Source: Caldilineaceae bacterium (GTDB taxonomy: Bacteria; Chloroflexota; Anaerolineae; Caldilineales; Caldilineaceae). Taken from it: a DNA stretch of 64,000 nucleotides. Numbering within the stretch: the first letter of the stretch is position 1; each line of letters opens with the position of its first letter. Shown in pieces: positions 22,754 through 29,325 of this stretch. The translations under genes and the position numbers were made by a program. The notes beneath the pieces were generated by a model. The model was given only the letters and a program-made list of their open reading frames with translations, had not been told where the DNA came from and searched no databases. Where the stretch lies: assembly GCA_022842065.1 (NCBI GenBank), contig JALHQH010000007.1, positions 310,527 through 374,526 on the forward strand. Direction: 5' to 3'.

Positions 22754-25732
22754 ATGAAAATTCAATTCGACGCCAATCAACCCTTCCAACTGGATGCTGT
22801 GGCCGCCATCACCGACCTGTTCGAGGGACAGCCGCAAGGCGCGCCAGAGTACGCCGTGATCAACCTGGGCAACATGGAAGGTCTCTTCGCCGGCCAGGAG
22901 CGCACCGAACTGGGCGCGGGCAACCGTCTGCTGCTGGCCGAGGAGAAGCTGCATACCAATCTGCGCACCGTCCAGACGCGCAATGACATCGAAGTGCCCG
23001 ATCCCGTCGCGCCGCTGGAAGCTTGGGAACTCTTCGACAGTCCGGCCAATGTGGCGCGTCTGTGCCCCCATTTCTCAGTCGAGATGGAGACCGGCACCGG
23101 CAAGACCTATGTCTACTTGCGCACCATCTTCGAGTTGTCGCGACGCTATGGTTTTCAAAAGTTTATTATCGTCGTGCCCAGTGTTGCCATTCGCGAAGGT
23201 GTGCTCAAGAACATCGAGATTACCGCCGAGCATTTCCGCGTGCTCTACAACAATCTGCCCTTTGAGCATTTTGTCTACGACGCCCGCAAAGTCAACCGCT
23301 TACGCCAATTCGCAACCAGCAACACCCTGCAAATTCTCGTCATCAACATTGACGCCTTCCGCAAAAACTTCACCGGCACCGAAGCCGAGCAGAAGAGCAA
23401 CGTCATCTACAAGGAGAGCGACAAACTGTCGGGCCGCCAACCGATCGAGTTTGTCCAAGCAGCGCGACCGATTGTAATCATCGATGAGCCACAAAGTGTG
23501 GATAGCACCGACAAAGCCCAGGAAGCGATCAAGGCGCTCAACCCGCTCTGCACCCTACGCTACTCGGCCACCCATCGCAACCGCTATAACCTCATCTATC
23601 GGCTCGACCCCATACGCGCCTTTGAACTCAAGTTGGTCAAGCAGATCGTCGTTGCCAGCGCGGTGGCCGAGGGCGCAGCCAATCTGCCCTTTGTGCGCGT
23701 GGAGGCGATTGACTGCAAAAAGGGCATCAAAGCCAAAGTACGCATTCATGTGCAGGCGACTGACGGTCCCAAGGAGAAGTCATTTACGATCAAGCAGAGC
23801 GCCGATCTCTTTCTGCTCTCTGGTGAACGGACCAACTATGCTCATGGCTTTTCCATCGCCGAGATCAACGCCGAACCGGGCAATGAGTTTATTCGCTTTA
23901 ATAATGGGCGCAGCCTGCGTTTGGGTGAGGAAATGGGCGGCATGAGCGAAGAGGTCTGGCGCGCGCAGATCAAACATACAATTAAGCGCCACCTGGAGAA
24001 GGAGTTGCAAGTACAGCAGCGCGGGATCAAAGTGCTCTCACTCTTCTTCATTGATCGTGTAGCGAATTATCGCGACTACGATGACACTGGACAACCGGTA
24101 GCTGGTAAATTTGCCTTGGCCTTTGCCGCCGAATTGACCGCCTTGGCCAAAGAGCCACGTTACCAGTCACTATCTTGGCTGCAACAGCCGTTAGAGAAGT
24201 TGCACAACGGCTACTTCGCCCAGGATAAGAAAGGGATCCTCAAGGATACGCGTGGCGACACCCAAGCCGATGACGAGGTTTATAATCTGATCATGAAGGA
24301 GAAGGAGCGTCTGCTTGCCCTTGATGAACCTTTACGTTTCATTTTCAGCCATTCGGCCTTGCGCGAAGGGTGGGACAACCCCAACGTCTTTCAGATCTGC
24401 ACGCTCAATGAAACCAGAAGCGCCGTCAAGAAGCGCCAGGAGATTGGCCGTGGTCTGCGTTTGCCGGTAGACCAAAATGGACAGCGGGTTTTTGACGAAT
24501 CGGTGAACAAGCTCTATGTCATGGCCAATGAAAGCTATGAAGATTTTGCACGCGCCCTGCAAACCGAGTACGAAGAAGAGTGCGGTGTCACCTTTGGCAA
24601 GGTACCACTGCTTGCGTTGGCTAAGTTAACGCAGGTGATGAATGGCGTTGAGCAGCCCATTGGGCGCACTGCCGCCACCGCCATCCAGCAGGCATTGGTT
24701 GCCCAAAACATGCTCGATGCCGATGGTCGCATTCAACCGGCCTTTGACCCCAAGCGCCAAGGGTTTAACCTCGTTCTGCCCCCCGATCAACAAGCCCTGG
24801 CGCCAGCCGTGATCGATCTGCTTGCCTCCTACCAGATTGAGCGGCACATTCGCAAGGAGCGCGATGAGGGCGTGAATCGGCTCAAGAAAGCAGTAACGCT
24901 CAGTTCCGAGTTTCAAGCGCTTTGGGAGCAGATCAGGCCCAAGACCACCTATCGTGTCGAATTTTCCACGGACGAATTAGTGCTGAAGGCGATTGCGGCC
25001 CTCAATCGTATGCCGCACATCGAAATTCCACGCATCCTCATCAATGCGGGACAATTTAGTCTGCGTAAAGGTGGCATCACCGCCGCAGCAGTGAGCGTGG
25101 CCGAAGAAAAAGTCCCCTACGCGGCCCAGCCTATGCCCGATCTGTTGGCTTATCTGCAGAATGAAACCGAACTCACGCGCTCTACGTTGGTACGCATCCT
25201 CAAAGGCTCTGGAAAACTCAACGAGTTCTTCAACAACCCGCAGCGCTTTATGGACGCGGTCGCGGCGATTCTCAAGGATGAATTACACCGGCTACTCGTA
25301 GATGGCATCAAATATGAACGGATCGCTAGCGGCAGGGTAGATGCGGCCTGGGAGATGCTGCTCTTCAAAAACGAGGAATTGATCGACCACTTGACTGCAC
25401 TCCAAGTCGACAAATCGGTCTACGAATATGTGGTCTACGAATCCGAAGTGGAGCGCGAATTTGCAAAACAATTGAATGAGCGCGAAGACATCAAACTCTT
25501 CGTCAAATTACCCGGCTGGTTTACGATCGACACACCCGTTGGCAAATACAATCCCGACTGGGCGATCCTCAAACATGATGACCACGCGCTCTATCTGGTA
25601 CGCGAAACCAAAAGCACCCCCAACTTTCTCAAGCTGCGCAACAGCGAAGCTGACAAAGTACGCTGCGGACAGAAACACTTTGACGCATTAGGCGTTTCAT
25701 TCGATGTCGTTGCAACCGCCGCGGTTGTATAA
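22754..25732 (+). CDS. Type III restriction endonuclease subunit Res (DEAD/DEAH helicase-nuclease)
   Basis: A 992-residue SF2 helicase-nuclease. Walker A is ETGTGKTYVYLR (about 110), motif II is IIDEPQSVD (about 241; the DEPQ form is characteristic of type III Res), and motif VI is RQEIGRGLRLPVD (about 560). The C-terminal PD-(D/E)XK nuclease has NPDWAI (about 933) and VRETKS (about 949). Type III Res cuts only when complexed with Mod, which supplies target recognition. With mod truncated, the protein is probably inactive or partners with another Mod. The coding sequence itself looks intact. Confidence 0.93.
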   Translation: MKIQFDANQPFQLDAVAAITDLFEGQPQGAPEYAVINLGNMEGLFAGQERTELGAGNRLLLAEEKLHTNLRTVQTRNDIEVPDPVAPLEAWELFDSPANVARLCPHFSVEMETGTGKTYVYLRTIFELSRRYGFQKFIIVVPSVAIREGVLKNIEITAEHFRVLYNNLPFEHFVYDARKVNRLRQFATSNTLQILVINIDAFRKNFTGTEAEQKSNVIYKESDKLSGRQPIEFVQAARPIVIIDEPQSVDSTDKAQEAIKALNPLCTLRYSATHRNRYNLIYRLDPIRAFELKLVKQIVVASAVAEGAANLPFVRVEAIDCKKGIKAKVRIHVQATDGPKEKSFTIKQSADLFLLSGERTNYAHGFSIAEINAEPGNEFIRFNNGRSLRLGEEMGGMSEEVWRAQIKHTIKRHLEKELQVQQRGIKVLSLFFIDRVANYRDYDDTGQPVAGKFALAFAAELTALAKEPRYQSLSWLQQPLEKLHNGYFAQDKKGILKDTRGDTQADDEVYNLIMKEKERLLALDEPLRFIFSHSALREGWDNPNVFQICTLNETRSAVKKRQEIGRGLRLPVDQNGQRVFDESVNKLYVMANESYEDFARALQTEYEEECGVTFGKVPLLALAKLTQVMNGVEQPIGRTAATAIQQALVAQNMLDADGRIQPAFDPKRQGFNLVLPPDQQALAPAVIDLLASYQIERHIRKERDEGVNRLKKAVTLSSEFQALWEQIRPKTTYRVEFSTDELVLKAIAALNRMPHIEIPRILINAGQFSLRKGGITAAAVSVAEEKVPYAAQPMPDLLAYLQNETELTRSTLVRILKGSGKLNEFFNNPQRFMDAVAAILKDELHRLLVDGIKYERIASGRVDAAWEMLLFKNEELIDHLTALQVDKSVYEYVVYESEVEREFAKQLNEREDIKLFVKLPGWFTIDTPVGKYNPDWAILKHDDHALYLVRETKSTPNFLKLRNSEADKVRCGQKHFDALGVSFDVVATAAVV

Positions 25733-25858: not shown

Positions 25859-28210
25859 TTATCTAACCCCCCGCACCAGCCCATACAACAACCCGCGCCG
25901 ACTAGCCAACCCGACCACGCGCCCCGCGCCATCGACCACCGGCAGCCGTTTGATCCGGTGGTCGATCAAGAGCCGGATGGCGTCAGAAATTTTGTCCTCG
26001 GTGGTGACACTGAGGATGGGGGTGGTCATCAATTCGGCGGCGGTTTGGGGTAGATCCGGTGGGGTCTCCTGCCCATGTAAGGCGGCTAAGACCTCATCGC
26101 GCTGCGCCGGATCGACATTACGCGCCAGGTCGCTTTCGCTGATCATGCCCAGCGGTGCGCCATTGGCATCGACGACCACGGCGCGCAGTTGGAGGGCACG
26201 CTGCAACTGCGGTAAAAGCTGGGCCAGTGGCGTTGTGGCAGCCACGGTCACCGCTTCCTCCAGTTCGACTGTGCCAACTCGTGCGTCCCAATCAAAAAAG
26301 GCCGAGGCGTCTTTGCTGGTCGGTGGCAGTTGAAAGACGAGGGCGCGCAAAATGTCGGAGCGGGTCAACAGCCCCACCAGTCGCGCTTGCTGGTCGACAA
26401 CAGGCAACCGCTTCCAGTTTCCTTCGCGCATGAGGGTCAACGCGGCGCTGATCGGGGCATCGGCGGCAATGGTGGCAACGGGTTGTGACATGACCTGGCT
26501 GACGTTGATCTGCGCGGCGCGAGCCAGCAAAGGGGTGCGGGCAGCAACGGTCAGTTGTCCGATCTGGTGCAGATTGTAGCCCAAGCCATGACGCAGCAGA
26601 TCATTATCGCTGACAATGCCAACGACCTGTCCGGCGGGGTTGAGCACCGGTACCGCGCGCACCCCCGCGCGCAAGGCACTGGTAATCACTGTCGCCAGGG
26701 TCTCGGCGGCCGTGACACCGACAACGGCGGTCGTCATCAGGCTGCGCACGGGTTGCATCTCCAACGTACGGGTCAGCCTGGGCAACGGTGGCAGCCAGCC
26801 CCCATAGCGCGTACGCAGCGTGCGCAGATTCTCATCTGGTTGTAGATCCAGCACCGCGATCTTGGGTTGATGCACGCGCTGGGTGACATAAATCCCGCGA
26901 TGCCCCGAACCCAAATAGGCGACCACACAGCCGAAAAAGAGATAGGGAATCGCGCCGCCGCCAAAGAGTTCGATGCCCATGATCGCGCAGGCCAGCGGGG
27001 TGTTACTCGCCCCGGCAAAGACTGCGACGAGGCCAACCGATGCTAATAGCGCGGGGGGCAGATCAAGCGGTCCACTCAGGGCATGACCCAAAGTTGCGCC
27101 AATCACAAAGAGCGGGGTCACTTCGCCGCCCAGATAGCCAGTGCCCAGGGTAACGGCGGTAAAAAGGAGCTTTAGGGCAAAAGCCCAGGGCACCACCCCG
27201 GTGCCCGCCACACTGTCGGCAATCAAGGGCAGGCTAAGGCCGAGATAATCACGGGTACCAACCAGCCAGGTCAACCCGATCACCGCCACGCCACCAATCA
27301 CCGGGTAAAGCGGGGTCCAGGTTGTTGTGCGACTCACGAGTAGCTTGATGCCGTGGGTCAACTCGACAAAGATCAGGCTGGTCAAGCCAAAGGCGATGCC
27401 CGCCAGCCCCACCTTGGCCAGCAGCAGCAGTTCAAGCGGGGTTAAGGCCAGCGCGGGATAGTGGACATGCGGTGTACCCCAGGCGCGTGCCACCCAATCG
27501 CCAATAAAGGAAGCGACCAGGCAAGGGATCAGTCCATCATAGCGAATGCGCCCCATGCCCTGCACCTCCATGCCAAAGACAAAGCCGGCCACGGGTACCC
27601 CAAAGACCGAACCAAAGCCACCACTGATGCCGGCCATGAGCAGCAAGCGGCGATCTTCACCGCTCAGCCCCAACAGGCGGCGGACCCCATCGGCCAGACT
27701 GGCCCCCATCTGGATCGCGGTGCCTTCGCGGCCGGCAGAGCCGCCACCAAGGTGGGTGGCAATCGTGCCAAGTAAGACCAAGGGGGCCATGCGCAGTGGA
27801 ATCCGAGCACGGTTATGGTTGACCTCATCAATCACCAGGTTATTGCCCAGCGCGGCGGTGCCGCCAAAGCGATAGTAGAGCCAACCCATCCCTAGCCCGA
27901 CCAGCGGTAGCGCATAGAGCAAGGCTGGGTACGCCAATCGGGTTGCCGTTGCCCAGGCCAACGAGGTTAGAAAGATCCACGCGGCGGTGCCGGCCAAAGC
28001 GCCGACCAGGCTGCCCAGTAGTACCCAGCGCGCCCCATTATACAGAAACGCCAGCAGGTCATGCCCGCGAAAGGCGAAGAGTTCGTTGGCACTTTGATAA
28101 AGTTGGCCCTGCCAGGCGCGGCGGCGGGCACGCGCGGTGGCCTGTTGGGCGCGCACGACACCAGTGGTGGATAAGCGATCCGTCTTGTCAGGCTGCTTTT
28201 TGATCATCAT
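25859..28210 (-). CDS. CLC-F-type fluoride/proton antiporter fused to four CBS motifs
   Basis: A CLC-fold membrane protein of 783 residues. In place of the chloride-type GSGIP and GREGP it has GNNLVIDE (122-129) and GREGT (160-164), and GGEVTPLF (361-368) replaces GxFxP. The gating Glu is E162. These changes are those described for the fluoride-specific CLC-F branch. About ten membrane helices run from 60 to 440. Four CBS motifs follow (about 486-541, 571-622, 645-696, 724-778), i.e. two Bateman modules. Bacterial CLC-F proteins usually end after the membrane domain, so this tail is unusual. RBS AGGAG precedes the ATG. A fluoride riboswitch lies directly upstream, supporting export of F-. Confidence 0.9.
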   Translation of the reverse strand: MMIKKQPDKTDRLSTTGVVRAQQATARARRRAWQGQLYQSANELFAFRGHDLLAFLYNGARWVLLGSLVGALAGTAAWIFLTSLAWATATRLAYPALLYALPLVGLGMGWLYYRFGGTAALGNNLVIDEVNHNRARIPLRMAPLVLLGTIATHLGGGSAGREGTAIQMGASLADGVRRLLGLSGEDRRLLLMAGISGGFGSVFGVPVAGFVFGMEVQGMGRIRYDGLIPCLVASFIGDWVARAWGTPHVHYPALALTPLELLLLAKVGLAGIAFGLTSLIFVELTHGIKLLVSRTTTWTPLYPVIGGVAVIGLTWLVGTRDYLGLSLPLIADSVAGTGVVPWAFALKLLFTAVTLGTGYLGGEVTPLFVIGATLGHALSGPLDLPPALLASVGLVAVFAGASNTPLACAIMGIELFGGGAIPYLFFGCVVAYLGSGHRGIYVTQRVHQPKIAVLDLQPDENLRTLRTRYGGWLPPLPRLTRTLEMQPVRSLMTTAVVGVTAAETLATVITSALRAGVRAVPVLNPAGQVVGIVSDNDLLRHGLGYNLHQIGQLTVAARTPLLARAAQINVSQVMSQPVATIAADAPISAALTLMREGNWKRLPVVDQQARLVGLLTRSDILRALVFQLPPTSKDASAFFDWDARVGTVELEEAVTVAATTPLAQLLPQLQRALQLRAVVVDANGAPLGMISESDLARNVDPAQRDEVLAALHGQETPPDLPQTAAELMTTPILSVTTEDKISDAIRLLIDHRIKRLPVVDGAGRVVGLASRRGLLYGLVRGVR

Positions 28211-28247
28211 CCGCTCCTAAGGTCAAGGGTCCCAATGGAACCAAAAT

Positions 28248-28303
28248 AAAAAAATAGCTTCTACAGTGGCGACCTGAAATCAGGTCAGCCCTGTAGAAGC
28301 TAT
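28248..28303 (-). terminator. Riboswitch-controlled intrinsic terminator
   Basis: In RNA sense, AUAGCUUCUACAG (28303-28291) pairs with CUGUAGAAGCUAU (28266-28254), with an inner GACCUG/CAGGUC stem, followed by UUUUUUU (28254-28248). The 5' arm is the same sequence that closes the fluoride aptamer, so aptamer and terminator exclude each other. This predicts termination without fluoride and read-through with fluoride. Confidence 0.88.
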
Positions 28304-28346
28304 CAGCCTGGTCGCGCCAGACAAAAATTGGTGAGCCTCATCACCT
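28293..28346 (-). ncRNA. Fluoride riboswitch aptamer (crcB motif)
   Basis: Read on the minus strand: AGGUGAUGAGGCUCACC forms the first stem with the conserved GAUG-containing loop. Then come AA, a U-tract and a hairpin GUCUGG-CGCG-CCAGGC, followed by CUGAUAGCUUCUAC. The GAGGC of the loop can pair with GCUUC for the pseudoknot. The layout and the fixed positions match the fluoride aptamer as I recall it from Thermotoga (GGCGAUGAGGC ... GGCUGAUGGCCUCUAC). The next gene downstream is the CLC-F antiporter. Confidence 0.93.
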
Positions 28347-28450
28347 GTCGTGGCGATCATGTGCCACGGCGATTAAGTTCTATGGTAGCACAATCAGGTG
28401 ACGCAGGCAAGCTGATGGCCACTGTGAGGTTTTCATCCGGCCCCACAGAC

Positions 28451-28498
28451 TAGACCGCAGTGTAGACCGCAGTGTAGACCGCAGTGTAGACCGCAGTG
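28451..28498. repeat. Four perfect tandem copies of TAGACCGCAGTG
   Basis: A 12-bp unit is repeated four times without change, followed by a diverging TAGTCTGCATCC. It lies between the riboswitch region and the stop codon of the FmdE-like gene (28536). The complement GCGGTCTACTG reappears at 28532-28542, so a hairpin can form. Confidence 0.9.
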
Positions 28499-28535
28499 TA
28501 GTCTGCATCCTCGGATGTGCACGACACGTTGCGGT

Positions 28536-29105
28536 CTACTGATAATACCCAGGCCCTGCACAAGCGCGACAGAGCAGACGGCCACCGACTAACTGTTCGC
28601 GCTCGTTGATGATCTCTTCGCCACACTGCGCGCAATTGACGCGTACACCGGCCCGGCTCACAATTGCCGCCACCGGCGTCGTCAAGGTAACGGTCTGCAG
28701 GGTCAACAGTTCTGCTGCCGGCATAATCTGGTAGGCTTGCAGTTGGGCAAAGTAGTGGCGGGGCTCGTCAACCGCATAGGCGTAAGCCTTTTCTCGCACA
28801 TCCAGTTGGGGCGCAATGCGGACAGCCGCGGCCGTTTTAGTATCAATAAAAGTGGCCGCAATTTTGCCATAATCCTCGACACGCAACGTGCGATGGCCAA
28901 CCGTGCAACCAGTGGCAACCTCAATGCCATCGGCAAAACAGCCATCGGTTTCGATGATTACCAGCAACCGTTTATCACGCCGCGGTAAAGGGAGATCCAG
29001 CGCCACCCCACCGGCCAGCCCAATCCGCGCCCCCAAGACCTGGCGCGGACAAAGATGTTGATGGCGCGCCATCGAGATCGCTAAAATTTGCTGTAAATCA
29101 GCCAT
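28536..29105 (-). CDS. FmdE-like protein with C-terminal zinc ribbon
   Basis: A 189-residue protein starting at 29105 (MADLQQILAI). An earlier in-frame start at 29297 would only translate the repeat array and is rejected. The N-terminal FmdE domain has HQHLCPRQVLGARIGLAG, the His-x-His-x3-Cys-like motif, and ETDGCFADGIEVATGCTVG with conserved Cys residues that bind metal. The C-terminal zinc ribbon has CAQCGEEI ... LLCRACAG (CxxC twice). FmdE proteins are associated with molybdenum formylmethanofuran dehydrogenase in methanogens. In bacteria they occur near molybdenum or metal genes and the role is unclear. The PfkB kinase lies upstream across the repeat. Confidence 0.87.
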   Translation of the reverse strand: MADLQQILAISMARHQHLCPRQVLGARIGLAGGVALDLPLPRRDKRLLVIIETDGCFADGIEVATGCTVGHRTLRVEDYGKIAATFIDTKTAAAVRIAPQLDVREKAYAYAVDEPRHYFAQLQAYQIMPAAELLTLQTVTLTTPVAAIVSRAGVRVNCAQCGEEIINEREQLVGGRLLCRACAGPGYYQ

Positions 29106-29126
29106 CGGCTGCTGGGTTCCTTTAAA

Positions 29127-29325
29127 AACGTGAGGTGTGAAACGTGAAACGTGAAACGTGAAACGTGAAACGTGAAACGTGAAACGTGAAACGTGAAACG
29201 TGAAACGTGAAACGTGAAACGTGAAACGTGAAACGTGAAACGTGAAACGTGAAACGTAAGACCTAACGTCGCCTATTGTATAGACTTCACGTTTCACGTT
29301 TTACGTTTTACGTTTCACACCTCAT
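29127..29325. repeat. Large palindromic array of 7-bp GTGAAAC units
   Basis: About 17 tandem GTGAAAC units run from 29138 to 29255. After a 35-bp unique centre come the complementary GTTTCAC / GTTTTAC units (29287-29318). The array separates the PfkB kinase from the FmdE-like gene and is translated as a run of SRFTFHV heptads if read on the minus strand. Confidence 0.92.

Follow-up and report, generated by a model that had tools for sequence, protein, structure and literature searches.

Organization of the locus

The DNA analysed here (the window, 64,000 nucleotides from a Caldilineaceae bacterium) carries on its minus strand a putative fluoride exporter gene, preceded by a leader in which a fluoride aptamer and an intrinsic terminator overlap. 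The features are listed below in the order of transcription.

28382..28410, minus strand: candidate promoter, TTGCCT 28410-28405 and TACCAT 28387-28382, picked by eye
28349..28368, minus strand: leader hairpin CGUGGC/GCCACG, directly 5' of the aptamer, in the best folds of several truncated transcripts
28293..28345, minus strand: fluoride aptamer core, from P1 to the conserved UAC (RF01734 match 28354-28287; R2 match 28353-28283)
28346-28330, minus strand: AGGUGAUGAGGCUCACC, aptamer segment of the initial annotation, located by sequence
28345-28342 / 28333-28330, minus strand: P1 stem, GGUG / CACC, with the loop AUGAGGCU
28335..28339, minus strand: pseudoknot 5' strand GAGGC, within the P1 loop, pairing with GCUUC 28300-28296
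28322-28317 / 28311-28306, minus strand: variable hairpin, GUCUGG / CCAGGC, from sequence and fold
28306-28293, minus strand: CUGAUAGCUUCUAC, second aptamer segment of the initial annotation, located by sequence
28296..28300, minus strand: pseudoknot 3' strand GCUUC, common to the terminator 5' arm and flanked by the linchpin bases A28303 and U28295
28248..28303, minus strand: intrinsic terminator with a 13-bp outer stem, an inner hairpin and seven U, from the fold, with arm and U-run kept in relatives
28214..28218, minus strand: Shine-Dalgarno-like AGGAG, preceding the ATG at 28210
25859..28210, minus strand: predicted fluoride/proton antiporter of the CLC-F type (783 aa; PF00654), its C-terminal part holding four CBS domains (PF00571, four stretches)

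The ATG of the exporter gene at 28210 lies 83 nt past the end of the aptamer core. The spacer of the candidate promoter is 17 nt long and ends in TGC (extended -10), and 8 of 12 positions match the consensus; a sigma-70 scan (threshold 9) lists no promoter for the riboswitch leader. A promoter at 28410-28382 is possible from this likeness. Further upstream on the minus strand, an FmdE-like open frame (28536-29297) stops about 190 bp short of the aptamer core. A perfect 12-bp tandem repeat, TAGACCGCAGTG, in 4.2 copies (28451-28501) is located between this frame and the riboswitch leader. A heptanucleotide repeat, AAACGTG/TTCACGT in about 19 and 5 copies (29126-29318), would read as SRFTFHV repeats starting the FmdE-like frame, the real start of which probably lies after the repeat. 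On the other side, a Type III restriction enzyme Res-like subunit with an endonuclease domain (22754-25732) is encoded convergently with the exporter gene.

The downstream gene encodes a predicted CLC-F exporter

Judged by published signatures and the best solved-structure match, the product of 25859-28210 is a CLC-F. The best PDB match is the E. casseliflavus CLC-F (6d0j) with an E-value of 1.5e-49 and 172 bits, and the first CLC entry other than a CLC-F, 3nd0, scores 25 bits. The signatures of CLC-F proteins given in a review are GREGT/V, GEVTP, and GNNLI or GMGLI (PMC11139923). The exporter has GNNLV at residue 122, GREGT at 160 and GEVTP at 362. In GNNLV, V replaces the I of the published GNNLI, and the solved E. 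casseliflavus CLC-F has GMNLV at this place. The fluoride-related gene expected downstream of the aptamer is thus present as a CLC-F gene, in line with the initial annotation, on signatures of which one differs by one residue and on the best match to 6d0j. Homologues of the exporter, as far as named among the best 120, come mostly from Caldilineaceae and other Chloroflexota, with one from Bathyarchaeota.

Structure of the aptamer

The elements of a fluoride aptamer that had been annotated on the minus strand at 28346-28248 were all found there upon inspection of the sequence. The P1 stem closes the AUG-containing loop AUGAGGCU, as in the fluoride riboswitch (crcB motif), and the variable hairpin is followed in order by UGAUA, GCUUC and UAC. 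All four P1 pairs are intact in the window, and the pseudoknot GAGGC/GCUUC forms five of five pairs, one of them G-U. The bases A28303 and U28295 are both present; they do not vary among the 25 rows of an alignment made without the window, partly through the selection of the rows, and would be the counterpart of the published B. cereus linchpin A40-U48 in a numbering mapped by us (PMC8752731). In addition, the window keeps all 11 positions at which the 25 relatives of this alignment agree.

Covariance models and covariation

A search of 351 nt (28150-28500) against 4227 families gave RF01734 (Fluoride) as the best of the 10 listed matches, at 28354-28287 with an E-value of 8.6e-5, which by our own arithmetic becomes about 0.016 when scaled to 64 kb and 4227 families. 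The alignment spans the full length of the model (positions 1-64), yet reaches 24.5 bits against a gathering cut-off of 34, and for this reason the whole 64-kb window is without any Rfam match at the gathering threshold. The search with the Rfam crcB model, suggested in the initial annotation as the check, thus gave a significant E-value, with a score below the curated cut-off. The null at the gathering threshold, by itself evidence against a riboswitch, was overturned by the E-value search, the relatives and a held-out model. This held-out model, R2, was built from 25 relatives with the window left out. On the 64-kb window it finds the riboswitch copy at 28353-28283 with 36.7 bits and an E-value of 2.6e-9, the next match having an E-value of 0.23, where E-values of such covariance models are rough. 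The aptamer is therefore identified by more than an Rfam match below the cut-off.

When an alignment of 21 homologues was used for scanning, 234 relatives were detected, and the best 80 loci were kept. A strict motif (four of four P1 pairs, five of five pseudoknot pairs and fixed flanks) was found at most 600 nt upstream of the CLC match in 27 of these best 80 of 234 CLC loci, compared to 0.11 expected from the off-target rate. Elsewhere in 1.28 Mb the strict motif occurs in three copies, which are aptamer-like too and are detected by R1, the model described below; the copy in L006 lies 1.4 kb upstream of the CLC match, before an open frame that we read as MFS-transporter-like.

The alignment A2 holds the window and 25 loci (26 aptamers). 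Because pairing was the criterion for including a row, P1 and the pseudoknot are necessarily 100% paired in A2. Changes on both sides were observed at four of the four P1 pairs and two of the five pseudoknot pairs. The covariation score of 0.436 is reached by none of 500 shuffles, which leave the relatedness of the rows in place, and by no slid version of the alignment. Two of the five measures are weaker: 16 of 500 shuffles have at least as many pairs with a change on both sides, and 126 of 500 at least as many further pair types. The helix of the variable hairpin is 81.6% paired in A2.

The model R1, built from A2, has a match with an E-value below 1e-6 in 41 of the 80 loci kept (the best of 234), in each case no more than 393 nt before the CLC match, and 17 of these 41 lie outside its training set. 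In L006 and L007 the R1 match is about 1.4 kb upstream of the CLC match. Of the 17 R1-found loci outside training (L007 counted in and L052 left out), 14 were read directly, and the Chloroflexota-type ones were counted in the platform set used below; some of the loci outside training have the linker UAAU in place of UGAU. An R1 match is present in 17 of the 26 closest loci among these 80 (L001-L026); the nine lacking one include L002 and L003, whose CLC proteins share the long CBS-type tail.

The terminator shares a strand with the pseudoknot

The 5' arm AUAGCUUCUACAG (28303-28291) pairs with CUGUAGAAGCUAU (28266-28254) in 13 Watson-Crick pairs, followed by seven T at 28254-28248, the first of which doubles as the last base of the stem. 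The stem is lengthened by inner helices of 3 and 6 bp, which the initial annotation did not list. The terminator folds at -37.2 kcal/mol with a z-score of -8.6, and none of 200 shuffles is as low. The pseudoknot strand GCUUC belongs to the 5' arm, and the pseudoknot and the terminator stem are therefore mutually exclusive. The double use of the last aptamer segment as the 5' arm of a 13-bp stem with seven U, as first proposed, was located at 28303-28248. At the level of structure, a 5' arm overlapping the pseudoknot strand is what marks a fluoride riboswitch that terminates transcription.

Conservation of the overlap was followed in a platform set made up of the aptamer of the window and those of the 17 Chloroflexota-type loci that are R1-positive among L001-L026, 18 in total and chosen without regard to the terminator arm. 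In 17 of these aptamers, all of the last nine bases pair with an arm further downstream, and in 16 of the 18 this 9/9 arm is followed by at least seven T within the next 10 nt. The exceptions are L001 with a weak U-run and L005 with an 8/9 arm and three T. Shuffled downstream sequences reach a 9/9 arm in 1.4% of cases and a 9/9 arm plus seven T in 0.01%. In a nine-row alignment, the terminator helix is 100% paired compared to 38-56% when slid. Its covariation is weak, with one pair changed on both sides and a score reached by 38 of 500 shuffles in the nine rows, which is expected because the same strand also serves the aptamer. The insert between the terminator arms is 28-30 nt long in the window and L001, against 8-20 nt in the other 16 aptamers, and this longer insert may lengthen the time for the decision.

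A pseudoknot version that often escapes the Rfam cut-off

The pseudoknot of the Rfam consensus is GGaGU/ACUCC, the same letters as in the B. cereus riboswitch, whereas that of the window is GAGGC/GCUUC. The strand GARGC is found in 17 of the 18 platform-set aptamers, and GGAGU only in L005. The A-U second pseudoknot pair of the window is common to 16 of the 17 related Chloroflexota-type loci and accompanies a low Rfam score. When 16 loci were scanned at the gathering threshold, only L005 matched (50.9 bits). At E-values up to 10, only L018 was listed (27.6 bits) among L001, L004, L018, L020, L021, L022 and L024, and in whole-genome scans the aptamers of L009, L011 and L019 score 29.8, 30.7 and 22.6 bits, respectively. 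The RF01734 scores of aptamers before CLC genes thus range from unlisted to 50.9 bits. At E-values up to 1, some RF01734 match appears in 19 of 20 genomes, and in 13 of the 14 controls as well, nearly all of these matches being weak. Because genomes and controls alike give weak matches, only those adjoining CLC genes were used.

A pattern for the GARGC version was detected in 46 of 400 genomes from the phylum to which L001 belongs; its reversed control matched, by our reading of the table, in one. A survey of 33 instances in 30 fetched loci showed that 15 reach the Rfam cut-off, 12 are below it and six are unlisted at E-values up to 1, so that 18 of 33 miss the cut-off. The terminator arm is 9/9 in 28 of the 33 and 8/9 in one more, the two counts being given side by side because 21% of shuffles reach 8/9. 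Among 400 genomes from the phylum, a pattern for the canonical pseudoknot hit 15, but its reversed control gave 10 matches and about five of the 15 were aptamers by eye, so that it was dropped as a count. The pseudoknot version common in these CLC loci often escapes the Rfam cut-off, which is mildly new. Of 1901 Rfam fluoride sequences profiled in a published study, only 323 proved functional when transcription by E. coli polymerase was assayed, a caution for the switch proposed below; a covariation model covering both the aptamer and the terminator came out of the same study (PMC13273304). Its input was Rfam, and sub-cut-off members would for this reason be missing from its set; the word 'chloroflex' is absent from its main text. 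With a model adapted to the lineage, further parts of the fluoride response would come to light, among them unstudied genes like those of DUF6062.

Proposed switching mechanism

We propose that the leader is a transcriptional fluoride (crcB-motif) riboswitch acting as an ON switch for the CLC-F exporter, a reading that we hold with high confidence. It is based on the sequence, the structure, the covariation, the conservation of the overlap and the gene identity (by sequence) observed here. The riboswitch belongs to a known class, for which the B. cereus member provides a known mechanism with a mutually exclusive pseudoknot and intrinsic terminator (PMC11077080, PMC8752731, PMC13273304). Similar to the B. 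cereus crcB riboswitch, the window has P1, the pseudoknot, the linchpin A-U and a terminator overlapping the pseudoknot (PMC8752731, PMC11077080). It differs in the extra inner hairpin of the terminator and in the controlled gene, a CBS-bearing CLC-F and not crcB. The original reading as an ON switch thus matches the published overlap mechanism of B. cereus, and the overlap is kept in relatives.

By analogy with this class, P1 and the variable hairpin would fold first as the polymerase makes the leader, and the loop strand GAGGC would then pair with GCUUC to form the pseudoknot. Upon binding of fluoride with Mg2+, the A28303-U28295 linchpin would lock the pseudoknot. With the pseudoknot locked, GCUUC would be unavailable, and so the polymerase would read on into the exporter gene. 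When fluoride is absent, the 3' arm GUAGAAGCUAU would displace the pseudoknot strand to form the terminator, and transcription would stop at the U-run. The full terminator is calculated at -35.5 to -37.2 kcal/mol, compared to -13.2 kcal/mol for P1 plus the hairpin and about -4.4 to -6.0 kcal/mol for the pseudoknot duplex. As the terminator is far more stable, switching must be kinetic, a property that folding energies cannot show; fluoride binding, the direction of the switch and the kinetics of strand displacement would be those of the known class. Folding of the nascent chain, calculated without pseudoknots, lets the full terminator take over from about 28260 and therefore places the decision point roughly between 28293 and 28262; some truncated transcripts show other best folds in this calculation.

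A real fluoride aptamer might instead control translation mainly, or act only weakly, with a hairpin that is a poor terminator for the host polymerase. Such control would suit four of the 33 survey instances (L127-L130), aptamers before Na+/H+-exchanger-like frames (by Pfam on two of the four, L127 and L128), which are likely under another control mode because the overlapping terminator arm is missing, and it would also suit L005 with its 8/9 arm and three T. However, the terminator of the window is very strong with seven U, the 9/9 arm and U-run recur in 16 of 18 aptamers, and the Shine-Dalgarno sequence at 28218-28214 lies by coordinates outside the aptamer and terminator helices, which makes this explanation improbable. 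The hairpin could also be merely the terminator of the FmdE-like gene (28536-29297), which lies on the same strand with its end some 190 bp upstream of the aptamer core, and the aptamer likeness would then be due to chance; given the E-value of 2.6e-9 from the held-out R2, the presence of the aptamer-terminator unit before CLC genes in other genomes and the position of the pseudoknot strand inside the terminator arm, we consider this very improbable. Equally remote is a terminator that acts constitutively because the aptamer has decayed or does not bind, as might be suspected from the Rfam score under the cut-off, since P1 (4/4) and the pseudoknot (5/5) are intact, the 11 invariant positions are kept, and the A-U second pseudoknot pair tied to the low score is shared by 16 of 17 related loci.

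The proposed ON switch adds a clear and readily testable case of a known switch from a phylum that has been little studied. According to the initial annotation, such switches have rarely been examined in organisms of this kind. This is in keeping with a full-text search for 'fluoride riboswitch' with 'Chloroflexi', most subscription journals lying outside it, where the single match concerned, by its title, a dental Megasphaera.

CBS domains of the exporter and genes behind related aptamers

The new points at this locus are modest: the under-detection by Rfam of the pseudoknot version, and the CBS domains on the exporter, both mildly new. About 30% of CLC-Fs are under riboswitch control according to a review (PMC11139923), and the CLC-F of the window likewise stands behind a fluoride riboswitch, differing in its four-CBS tail. 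Counted from GEVTP, this tail comprises 422 residues. Five of the 80 CLC loci kept (the best of 234) have tails of 419-445 residues by the same count; the titles of all five refer to Chloroflexota groups, and the four CBS domains were confirmed in the two long-tail loci that were scanned. Five further CLC loci have tails of 263-274 residues; the one scanned, L041, is without CBS. From their sequence, the four CBS domains of the exporter are possibly a nucleotide-sensing module. For the fluoride channels, the other type of exporter, the same review reports that no natural protein-level regulation has been identified (PMC11139923), and a full-text search, with most subscription journals outside it, found no literature on a CLCF with a CBS domain and fluoride. 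A CBS-bearing CLC-F behind a riboswitch raises the question of an additional regulation of the fluoride exporter at the protein level.

Pfam was run on 23 of the 33 frames downstream of the GARGC-survey aptamers. These included two CrcB, two MFS, three MutS domain V, three Na+/H+ exchanger, one DUF190, four DUF6062 and one prenyltransferase-like protein, and seven had no match. Exporters and Na+/H+ antiporters are known targets of fluoride riboswitches (PMC11139923). In L120, L121, L122 and L123, aptamers above the Rfam cut-off precede DUF6062 proteins, that of L123 being just below the Pfam cut-off. No mention of DUF6062 was found in the full-text literature searched. From its position, DUF6062 is a candidate for a new fluoride-response family.

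A broader scheme, which we regard as tentative and rather unlikely in its entirety, would join these points: the RNA would sense fluoride while the CBS domains, as a possible second sensor, might gate the CLC-F in response to nucleotides and so to energy or to a second messenger, the Chloroflexota would have a lineage-typical aptamer version (A-U second pseudoknot pair, mostly overlapping terminator) that Rfam undercounts, and DUF6062 would take part in the fluoride response. If this were true, the DUF6062 genes behind the same RNA would belong to that response.

Aptamers above the Rfam cut-off also precede proteins with MutS domain V in L101, L111 and L112. In L106, L107, L124 and G224:C68, fluoride aptamers are found close together in tandem or divergent pairs, and in L106 and L107 one aptamer of the pair precedes a small protein with no Pfam match.
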